Shown in pieces: positions 50,014-53,071 of a DNA stretch of 64,000 bases (position 1 is its first letter; each line of letters starts with the position of its first letter). The notes under the pieces were generated by a model. That model did no database searches and was not told the origin of the DNA. It saw nothing but the letters and a program-made list of their open reading frames with translations. This stretch comes from Cognatundibacterium aquatile (GTDB lineage Bacteria; Pseudomonadota; Gammaproteobacteria; Burkholderiales; Burkholderiaceae_D): contig NZ_JACOFT010000003.1 in assembly GCF_014699135.1 (NCBI RefSeq), forward strand, positions 558,001-622,000, in the 5' to 3' direction. A program made the position numbers and the translations under genes.

Positions 50014-50028
50014 TGTCGGTAACTTTTG

Positions 50029-50057
50029 CTTACATTTAAGATGAAACCGAATAGAAT
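50029..50057 (+). promoter_or_regulatory. Candidate promoter of the borosin-like operon
   Basis: CTTACA (50029-50034), 17 bases, TAGAAT (50052-50057). This matches the sigma-70 consensus at 4/6 and 5/6. Transcription would start about 38 bases before the precursor ATG. Confidence 0.55.
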
Positions 50058-50101
50058 GTTTTCTTGGAAGTAATGTCATCAACTTTTACCTGAGAAACAC
50101 T

Positions 50102-50317
50102 ATGTCAAAACTGCTGGACTATCTGAATTATCTGGATCAAAACGCTGACGCACGTGAAGCATTTGCAGCCAACCCTGTCGCCGCAATGGATAGTTTTGGT
50201 CTGAGTGAGGAAGAAAAAAATTCGCTGATTTCCGGCGATAAATCGAAGGTGGCCAATTTAATTGGGATTGATGAGGCGGACTTGCCGAAGCTTCAGTCTC
50301 TTGAGACCACTCACTGA
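50102..50317 (+). CDS. Candidate split-borosin precursor peptide (LigA-like binding domain)
   Basis: 71 residues. The helical part carries a LigA-like borosin-binding-domain pattern: an AFAANPVAAMDSFGLSEEE block (20-38), then SGDKSKVANLIG (44-55). This closely follows the arrangement I recall for SonA of Shewanella oneidensis (NPxAxM, GL(S/T), GD, K(V/L)xxL), which is of similar size. The C-terminal stretch after residue 55 (IDEADLPKLQSLETTH) would be the core. It shares an operon with a GGDEF gene (38-base gap) and a SonM-like methyltransferase. The ribosome binding site is weak (TGAGAAA). Alternatively it is a free LigA-like domain of unknown use. Confidence 0.8.
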   Translation: MSKLLDYLNYLDQNADAREAFAANPVAAMDSFGLSEEEKNSLISGDKSKVANLIGIDEADLPKLQSLETTH

Positions 50318-50355
50318 TTTGTTAAGAGCGTGCGCTTAATAATGATAAAGAATCC

Positions 50356-52095
50356 ATGAGGCTTTTATTGTTATGCGCGATGCTGCTCATCGTTATTCTG
50401 CCTCGGGAGGTGAATGCTGCAACAGATGCGAAAAATGATGTGCTTTTTCAAAAAGTACGTCAGACTTTAAGCACTTCTCCCGATGCATCACTCAAAATAC
50501 TAGACGAACTGGCGTCGCAGCAGACTACGTTTTCTACTGAACAAAAAAATAAATTTCTGCTTTTGCGTGCATCGGCGCTCGGTTTTCTTGGAAAACACCG
50601 CGAGCGTGTGCAATTTGTTCAGTCTGTCATCTCAGATATTTCTGACATCGACTATCGAGCCCGATTTTTATATCAACTATCGGATGGCTACATCAATTTA
50701 GGTGAGTATGAAAATGCGCTGAGTTATATGAATCAGAGCATAGTATTGCTCCCCAGTCTGAAAAATAAAAATGCCAAGATTGATGTTTTCCAATCAGCAA
50801 TTGTTATTCTGAATTCATTGCGGGCGTATGACGAATCGATGATGTATGCGTTACGCTTGTCAGAACTGGATCGCGAAGAAAGTCCAGGTTTGGCGACCTG
50901 CCTAGGGATCGGCGATCAGATTGAAATCAGTTTTTTAAAGGGCAATCGTCAAAAAGCCAATGAACTGTTGAATAGTGCTATCAAGTCTTGTGATGAACAA
51001 CAGTTTTTTATTATGTCTCTTTTGATTAAAACCATCGCCAATATTGATGTGATCGAGTCAGGTAATTATGCTCTGGGTATCAAGGCTGGAGTATCTTTAG
51101 CTGTGGAGTTGAAAAAAAGCAATCAGAGTTCTGATTACTTAATACAGCTGGAAACGGCACTTGCTAAAGCTTACCTAAAAACGGGAGATACGCAGCAGGC
51201 TGAGTCATACGGTGTTCAGGCATATACCAGGGCAAAAAAAGAAAATGTCGTTTTGTTATTGGAAAAAGCCAGTGAAATTATGGCGGATATTAAGCGATCA
51301 CAGGGGCAGTATTTCTCAGCACTGGAGTATGCCGATACGGCGCTGACTTTAAAAAATAAGCTGCTTGATCAACAGTTGCAGAAAAACCTGGCCTACCAGC
51401 GTGTTAAGTTCGAGATTCAGGACAAAGCCAATCAAATGGTTTTACTCGAACAAAAGAACAAAATTCTCGATGTTGAAAAAAAATTAGAGAAGAAGAGCAA
51501 TCAGAATCTATTGCTGATCATCGCCTTGGTGCTGTGTTTTATTTGTGTGCTGGGCGTCTGGTTGTGGAAAGTTATCAGGCAGAAAAATATTTTCCAACGC
51601 CATGCAGAACTGGATGGGCTGACGCAGATCAGCAATCGTTCACACTTCATGAGTTCAGCAGAAGCCGGGGTTAAGCATCGTACTGCAGCGGTCAGCCTGA
51701 TCCTGTTCGATATGGATTTTTTCAAAAATGTGAATGACAGTTTTGGTCACCCAACTGGTGACTGGGTATTGAAAAATGTGAGTCAGGCTGTTGCCGGTGT
51801 ATTGCGTAAAGGTGATGTTTTTGGGCGTATTGGCGGCGAGGAGTTTGCTATCTTTTTGCCAGCGGCAGAACCGGAAATCGGTTTGCAACTTGCAGAACGT
51901 TGTCGGCATGCTATTACTATGATTGATACGGAATCCCGTGGCATCCGTTTTCCTTTAAGCGCAAGTTTTGGCCTCGCGACAATGACGATGAACACTAGCG
52001 GCATCACTAATTTTCAGGAATTGATGCAAGCGACTGATAAAGCGCTGTATCAATCCAAAGCAGATGGACGTAATCGCGTTTCCGTATTTTCATAG
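50356..52095 (+). CDS. Membrane diguanylate cyclase with TPR sensor (signal peptide-TPR-TM-GGDEF)
   Basis: 579 residues. A signal peptide (to about residue 21) is followed by periplasmic TPR-type helices (about 30-345), a coiled coil, a membrane helix at about 383-403, and a cytoplasmic GGDEF domain. The active site is GGEEF (493-497), and an intact RxxD inhibitory site (RKGD, 484-487) lies five residues before it, so it should make c-di-GMP with product inhibition. The DNA looks more A/T-rich than neighbours. It sits between the precursor and methyltransferase genes, with only 6 bases to the latter. Confidence 0.92.
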   Translation: MRLLLLCAMLLIVILPREVNAATDAKNDVLFQKVRQTLSTSPDASLKILDELASQQTTFSTEQKNKFLLLRASALGFLGKHRERVQFVQSVISDISDIDYRARFLYQLSDGYINLGEYENALSYMNQSIVLLPSLKNKNAKIDVFQSAIVILNSLRAYDESMMYALRLSELDREESPGLATCLGIGDQIEISFLKGNRQKANELLNSAIKSCDEQQFFIMSLLIKTIANIDVIESGNYALGIKAGVSLAVELKKSNQSSDYLIQLETALAKAYLKTGDTQQAESYGVQAYTRAKKENVVLLLEKASEIMADIKRSQGQYFSALEYADTALTLKNKLLDQQLQKNLAYQRVKFEIQDKANQMVLLEQKNKILDVEKKLEKKSNQNLLLIIALVLCFICVLGVWLWKVIRQKNIFQRHAELDGLTQISNRSHFMSSAEAGVKHRTAAVSLILFDMDFFKNVNDSFGHPTGDWVLKNVSQAVAGVLRKGDVFGRIGGEEFAIFLPAAEPEIGLQLAERCRHAITMIDTESRGIRFPLSASFGLATMTMNTSGITNFQELMQATDKALYQSKADGRNRVSVFS

Positions 52096-52101
52096 AATTC
52101 A

Positions 52102-52914
52102 ATGTTAAATAAAAAAGCAGGGAAATTAGTTTGTGTCGGCACTGGTATGCGTATGGCGGGACAATTGACGCCGTTGGCAAAAAGCTATATCGAGTCATTT
52201 GACGTGGTGATCGCTGCCGTTCCTAACATGTTCACCCGCAAATGGTTGCAAGGTGTGGCAAAGGAGTATGTCTGTTTATTAGATCATTACGACGATACGA
52301 AAGTCGATGGCAAGACCCGGCGGGATACTTATCGTCGCATGGCTGATACGATCCTGCATGAAGTCCGGCAGGGTAAAAGAGTATGCGCGGCATTTTATGG
52401 GCATCCCGGTATTTTCGCCTGCATCTCACACTTGGCAATTGCTGATGCGCGGCAGGAGGGTTTTGAAGCACATATGGAGCCGGGGATTTCCGCACTGGAT
52501 TGTCTGGTCGCCGATCTGGGAATCGACCCGGGTACTTTTGGTATGCAATCGATGGAAGCCACCCAATTCATGATTTATCAGCGCCAGATCGACCCGACTG
52601 CATTGTTTGTTTTGTGGCAGATCGGTATTGCCGGTGATCTGACACTCAAGCGTTTTGAGACGGAACCGGCGCATTTGCAGATCATTGTGAATAAGCTCAT
52701 GAAAACATATTCACCTGATCATGAGGTAATTTTGTATGAGGCTGCTACGCACCCGCTGGAGCAGACACGGGCGGATAAAATTCGTCTCTGTGAATTGCCG
52801 CAGGCGGCGCTGAAGCAGATCACCACACTGGTGATTCCGGCTGCAAATAAGATGCAAATTGATCAGGATGTCGTCGATCAGTTGCGAGCCTTGTCAGACA
52901 CCGTACTTGCCTGA
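52102..52914 (+). CDS. SonM-like borosin alpha-N-methyltransferase (tetrapyrrole methylase fold)
   Basis: 270 residues. SAM-binding, tetrapyrrole-methylase-like fold: LVCVGTGMRMAGQLTPLAKS at the N-terminus, YGHPGIFACISHLAI (99-113) and MEPGISALDCLVADLGIDPG (125-144). These blocks match, from memory, split borosin methyltransferases such as SonM rather than CobA/CysG or diphthine synthase. The Tyr-Arg-Tyr set of borosin enzymes is plausible here as Tyr63, Arg73 and Tyr77. No precursor peptide is fused to the C-terminus, so the substrate must be separate; the 71-residue peptide upstream fits. It starts 6 bases after the GGDEF stop without its own ribosome binding site, implying coupling. Confidence 0.85.
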   Translation: MLNKKAGKLVCVGTGMRMAGQLTPLAKSYIESFDVVIAAVPNMFTRKWLQGVAKEYVCLLDHYDDTKVDGKTRRDTYRRMADTILHEVRQGKRVCAAFYGHPGIFACISHLAIADARQEGFEAHMEPGISALDCLVADLGIDPGTFGMQSMEATQFMIYQRQIDPTALFVLWQIGIAGDLTLKRFETEPAHLQIIVNKLMKTYSPDHEVILYEAATHPLEQTRADKIRLCELPQAALKQITTLVIPAANKMQIDQDVVDQLRALSDTVLA

Positions 52915-52943
52915 GCCTTACCTGTATAGGTATTTATTGAATT

Positions 52944-52982
52944 AAAAAAAGCAGCACAATTTCTTTGTGCTGCTTTTTTTTC
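52944..52982 (+). terminator. Strong terminator closing the borosin-like operon
   Basis: GCAGCACAA / TTGTGCTGC stem, extended by seven A-T pairs, with a 5-base loop and a T run. It marks the operon end 30 bases after the methyltransferase stop. Confidence 0.92.
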
Positions 52983-53071
52983 TAGTTTCCAGTTCGTCTC
53001 CGCAGGCTGATCGGATATGAGTGGAACGGCGTTGAGTGATATTGAGGCAACGCAGGGCTGGCCTGAGTTGT

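Follow-up and report, generated by a model that had tools for sequence, protein, structure and literature searches.

A probable type IV split borosin operon with a linked TPR-GGDEF sensor gene in Cognatundibacterium aquatile

Split borosins of type IV are widespread in bacteria (PMC11285071; PMC11395268). In SonM/SonA of Shewanella oneidensis MR-1 (Miller et al. 2021, PMC8429565), the methyltransferase is a protein separate from the small precursor, whose binding domain has five helices. SonA comprises a five-helix bundle (residues 1–53), a linker (54–61) and the core (62–71), and residues Y58, R67, Y71 and Y93 of SonM are those probed by mutation (PMC8429565). Type IV is defined by separate, nearby genes, a SonM-family enzyme with the active-site residues, a precursor with a five-helix borosin-binding domain, alpha-N-methylation of the core by the enzyme, and an enzyme–precursor complex that is a dimer of heterodimers. 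The fungal proteins OphMA and dbOphMA (types I–III) share the methyltransferase fold and catalytic residues, but in them enzyme and precursor make up one fused chain, whereas in the locus described here the two are separate.

The window, the whole stretch of 64,000 nucleotides that was analyzed, comes from a genome close to Undibacterium rivi; the enzyme is 97% identical to its counterpart in that species. Three genes form an operon in the order precursor, sensor, enzyme, with intergenic gaps of 38 and 6 bp. The features are as follows.

50029..50057, + strand: weak sigma-70 promoter-like site 5′ of the precursor gene; 9/12 matches, no better than chance.
50102..50317, + strand: precursor peptide gene, 71 aa, ATG start (SonA match, five-helix model, Foldseek, alignment of 29 relatives); borosin-binding domain at about residues 1–54, a linker, and the C-terminal core at about 61–71, LPKLQSLETTH.
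50356..52095, + strand: sensor gene, 579 aa (Pfam TPR and GGDEF, model and fold search, invariant Cys182/Cys212, conserved linkage).
52102..52914, + strand: peptide backbone alpha-N-methyltransferase gene, SonM family, 270 aa, ATG start (SonM match; Y63, R73, Y77 and Y99 conserved).
52944..52980, + strand: intrinsic-terminator-like hairpin at the operon end; 16-pair stem, then a T run.
50014..53071, no strand assigned: extent of the cassette, inserted or lost, as judged from genus members that lack it.

The coordinates and lengths that the preliminary description gave for the peptide and enzyme ORFs are correct. The peptide motifs NPVAAM (24–29), GLSEEE (33–38) and GDKSKV (45–50) are exact as quoted there, and YGHPGIFACISH is present in the enzyme at residues 99–110. 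The peptide and enzyme genes do lie in one operon, as had been stated, but the third gene between them, that of the sensor, was overlooked. The terminator-like hairpin 3′ of the enzyme gene was rated strong; a GcvB match at the same place was below threshold and was taken as chance. No second precursor was found elsewhere in the source genome, the 71-residue peptide being the sole one of its type detected.

The enzyme matches SonM with an E-value of 1.5e-77 (263 bits) and about 49% identity over 251 residues, as against 1e-41 to 1e-47 for the fused borosins OphMA and dbOphMA. In the alignment its Tyr63, Arg73, Tyr77 and Tyr99 pair with SonM Tyr58, Arg67, Tyr71 and Tyr93. The proposed kinship with split alpha-N-methyltransferases such as SonM is borne out by this score and by the retention of all four active-site residues, and each member of the candidate set Tyr63/Arg73/Tyr77 falls on a characterized SonM residue. 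Pfam assigns the enzyme to the TP_methylase superfamily, and it gives weak matches to CobI, CobJ and CobM, as might be expected if it were an ordinary corrin or siroheme methylase lying beside a stray LigA-like ORF. That reading is scarcely credible. CobI, CobJ and CobM reach 12–24 bits against cut-offs of 163–391, while SonM scores 263 bits; the borosin active-site residues are complete; and a SonA-like precursor adjoins the enzyme in relatives from two proteobacterial classes. Across the corrin and siroheme methyltransferase families, YabN included, the scores are 12–51 bits against cut-offs of 163–525, which places the enzyme outside them. The cobalamin or siroheme methylase identity, which the preliminary description had set against its own, is thus left with profile scores far under the family cut-offs.

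The peptide matches SonA over residues 1–55 with an E-value of 4e-6. An AlphaFold model of the precursor alone, built with an alignment of 29 relatives, has five helices across residues 3–54 and a tail that is disordered from residue 65. The top Foldseek matches of this model are SonA chains, with a TM score (target) of about 0.9 over 53 columns; the E-values are weak (0.03) on account of the short domain, and the first 37 places are taken almost entirely by SonA, LigAB, one related dioxygenase and OphMA chains. The borosin-binding-domain pattern claimed for the peptide is therefore found both in the sequence match to SonA and in the predicted SonA-like fold.

The core, LPKLQSLETTH, is unlike the SonA core, SYLVISHGNGD, as had been claimed. 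One group of relatives has the core motif [AV]-[ILV]-D-S-[ILV], which is common to first precursors, to second precursors with diverged leaders and to one genome's extra precursor elsewhere; in the window core, K-L-Q-S-L-E-T-T-H, the segment L-Q-S-L is a variant of it. In other relatives the core is closer to that of SonA, for example IQVNISSF or ITVPQF. Because the window core is only weakly hydrophobic beside that of SonA, its methylation is less certain than that of its relatives. An extra precursor (L142, 7147–7413, + strand) lies on another contig of genome G176, with no sensor or enzyme gene nearby, and its core keeps the ALDSIE motif of the main-locus precursor of that genome. Many gamma-proteobacterial precursors (L079, L083–L086, L088, L090, L091) carry long acidic tails after a hydrophobic core.

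The locus compares closely with SonM/SonA. Precursor and enzyme are distinct neighboring ORFs in one operon (50102–50317 and 52102–52914), as the preliminary description had noted for split borosins, and this linkage is kept in relatives. The enzyme is of the SonM family and has the characterized active-site residues, and the precursor has the five-helix borosin-binding domain by sequence, model and fold search. The split-borosin reading of the preliminary description accords with the SonM-level homology, the catalytic residues, the sequence and fold of the binding domain, and the conserved linkage. As inferred from SonM/SonA, the enzyme would grip the helical binding domain of the precursor and methylate backbone amides of the core in a SAM-dependent manner. 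Relatives of SonM that are 67–77% identical to it (L080–L082) have the same type of TPR-GGDEF gene directly 3′ of the precursor. The order in the SonM/SonA type is enzyme–precursor–sensor, whereas here it is precursor–sensor–enzyme; the cores differ as given above, and core methylation here is predicted.

In the 579-residue sensor a signal sequence is followed by TPR repeats that are predicted to be periplasmic; a long helix that crosses the membrane once then leads to a cytosolic GGDEF domain. The GGDEF domain (Pfam E-value 5.6e-38) has intact GGEEF and RxxD motifs, and the model matches solved GGDEF domains in a fold search. With an intact GG(D/E)EF motif, in the form GGEEF, the protein is a predicted diguanylate cyclase. 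Two cysteines of the TPR region, Cys182 and Cys212, 30 residues apart, are invariant in 31 aligned sensors. The model puts them opposite each other, at the ends of a predicted helical hairpin, and a disulfide between them is therefore plausible. In its signal sequence, TPR input, membrane helix and GGDEF output the protein resembles periplasmic-sensor diguanylate cyclases with TPR input; it differs from them in the cysteine pair and in that its family occurs almost exclusively in genomes that have a split-borosin enzyme. We asked whether the cysteine pair marks precursor-linked sensors exclusively. This mostly holds, as in an unlinked sensor without the pair (L130), but the pair is missing in three kinase-type sensors and is present in the unlinked sensor of genome G950.

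We surveyed 37 split loci, 22 from beta- and 15 from gamma-proteobacteria. A TPR-family sensor adjoins the enzyme or the precursor in all of them, at differing chromosomal sites. Three gene orders occur: precursor–sensor–enzyme in the beta-proteobacteria and in gamma locus L087, enzyme–precursor–sensor in most gamma loci, and a divergent arrangement in L084. The output is a GGDEF domain in 12 gamma sensors, one of them degenerate (GAAEF, in L087). In the three remaining gamma loci (L089, L092, L093) hybrid histidine kinase and receiver domains replace GGDEF, and the TPR region of these kinase-type sensors still matches the sensor HMM (E 1e-18 to 1e-24). At five gamma loci (L083, L084, L085, L090, L091) a small ORF without a significant HMM match sits at the precursor position; from this position and the gross sequence we infer that these ORFs are diverged precursors. 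One beta locus (L104, 7433–9073) has a broken sensor, a precursor remnant and an intact-looking enzyme, and looks like a decaying copy.

Enzyme and sensor also occur together across genomes. Among the genomes of the genus, 18 carry both genes and 24 carry neither; one, a fragmented assembly, has an enzyme fragment alone. In a sample of 398 genomes of the phylum, 11 have both, one the sensor only, four the enzyme only and 382 neither (p about 2e-17, shared ancestry ignored). The enzyme is thus found in 11 of the 12 sensor genomes of this sample, and the four enzyme-only genomes comprise three of the kinase type and one of the long type. Genome G950, in which neither enzyme nor precursor was detected, encodes a member of the sensor family (L169, 6790–8529) that keeps both conserved cysteines.

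A search of 16 enzyme-bearing genomes with just the TPR region gave 18 matches, of which 16 are no more than about 5 kb from the enzyme gene. One exception is the L130 sensor mentioned above, which is without a precursor. The other, in genome G883, is a TPR-GGDEF sensor that directly follows a precursor-like ORF, the pair (L129, 4027–6094, − strand) being located 87 kb from the enzyme. This ORF matches the precursor HMM with an E-value of 6e-4 in a small search, and its core region, ALLICVQIPG, is followed by an acidic tail.

The cassette is found at several different chromosomal places among the relatives. Nine members of the genus retain the M14 gene, which lies upstream of the cassette here, and have none of the three cassette genes near it, and in two of the compared loci (L144, L145) the genes that flank the cassette downstream directly follow the M14 gene, giving a clean empty site. 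The M14 peptidase was rejected as part of the system: it is present in 9/9 tested genomes lacking the cassette, and other relatives have the cassette elsewhere. L108 carries duplicated precursor–sensor units, and the second precursor ORF of L028 continues into an apparent remnant of a sensor C-terminus. From the differing chromosomal places of the cassette, its empty sites, and this duplication and remnant, we conclude that precursor and sensor belong together and that the enzyme serves one or more precursors. Comparison with the closest relative gives a dN/dS of 0.03 for the enzyme, 0.15 for the precursor and 0.24 for the sensor; all three genes are therefore maintained under purifying selection. 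Within the sensor, the value is higher for the TPR part (0.26) than for the GGDEF part (0.12); the faster change of the TPR part fits a diversifying ligand, though such change is common in sensor domains.

We count the sensor as part of the system because of its linkage in all 37 loci, the co-occurrence, the separate pair in G883, the duplicated units and the retention of the TPR region when the output is swapped. It is very likely that the locus is a type IV split borosin operon to which the TPR-TM-GGDEF sensor is integral.

What the product does is a less certain matter. In RNPP systems of Gram-positive bacteria, a small peptide gene adjoins the gene of a TPR-containing receptor, and the receptors are cytosolic regulators. 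The present locus likewise pairs a short peptide gene with that of a TPR protein, an analogy for which no homology is claimed; unlike in RNPP systems, the candidate receptor here sits in the membrane as a predicted diguanylate cyclase, and the peptide is a predicted backbone-methylation substrate. As expected of a peptide–receptor pair, the two genes are co-inherited, in the 37 loci, in the G883 pair and in the duplicated pairs. The core, perhaps after proteolysis, would then bind or regulate the sensor TPR domain and shift the c-di-GMP output. The methylation step is predicted by homology to SonM/SonA. That the methylated core acts on the TPR domain to alter c-di-GMP output is drawn from gene association only, and we put it just short of an even chance. 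More broadly, and tentatively, split-borosin precursors and TPR membrane sensors may be cognate peptide–receptor pairs, by which N-methylated peptides signal through c-di-GMP or a phosphorelay in proteobacteria, one methyltransferase possibly serving several pairs.

The weak point of the ligand model is that the TPR domain is predicted to be periplasmic while the cassette encodes no exporter or maturation protease. A pepsin-like protease of the shewasin type is a borosin-cleaving enzyme; the family PF00026 has no match in the source genome, but as it has none in the control set either, this negative carries no weight. The G950 sensor, with neither enzyme nor detectable precursor, and the five gamma precursors that are too diverged for a significant HMM match count against the explanation as a whole. 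The missing protease and exporter, together with a precursor that has no signal sequence and a core that is only partly hydrophobic, would suit a precursor that stays in the cell and uses its binding domain to control the sensor from the cytosolic side, methylation only tuning the effect and no peptide being released. We regard this as quite improbable, in that the predicted periplasmic TPR region is the conserved, fast-changing part and is retained when the cytosolic output is swapped, and the core motif is retained among precursors with diverged leaders.

It is also conceivable, if on the unlikely side, that the sensor governs production: its TPR domain would sense an outside condition and c-di-GMP would tune the pathway, the product itself serving an unrelated purpose, for example in metal binding or as an antimicrobial. 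The tight three-gene operon agrees with this, as does the variation of the output domain among loci, expected of a locally wired regulator. Yet the precursor is paired with a sensor even where the enzyme is distant, as in G883, and precursor–sensor units duplicate together, while a production regulator should stay with the enzyme at least equally. The constant partnership of precursor and sensor suggests that such peptides may act as signals.

The peptide–enzyme pair is an ordinary addition to the type IV split borosins. A literature search combining borosin and diguanylate found no paper; the association of GGDEF with borosins is not claimed as new, because a GGDEF element appears in the legend of a borosin architecture figure (PMC11395268, 2024). 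Only the wider pattern may be new: a constant TPR input with interchangeable outputs, the separate precursor–sensor pair and the unit duplications were not found described in the literature searched. Should the constant partner of the precursor prove to be a c-di-GMP or histidine-kinase sensor of the TPR type, the function of the peptide becomes directly testable, and, if true, this would be a case of backbone-methylated ribosomal peptides serving as signals. The window locus is compact and cleanly missing from close relatives, which allows simple comparisons.

Distant enzymes that lie within longer proteins (L040–L042, L094) have no TPR sensor neighbor in 4/4 cases. Those of L040 (6971–11094) and L042 adjoin proteins with aspartate-valine repeat tails, and in L040 a gene resembling methionine adenosyltransferase lies directly 5′ of the enzyme. 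L041 and L042 have in common a 220-aa protein directly 3′ of the enzyme, which resembles an iron/2-oxoglutarate oxygenase.
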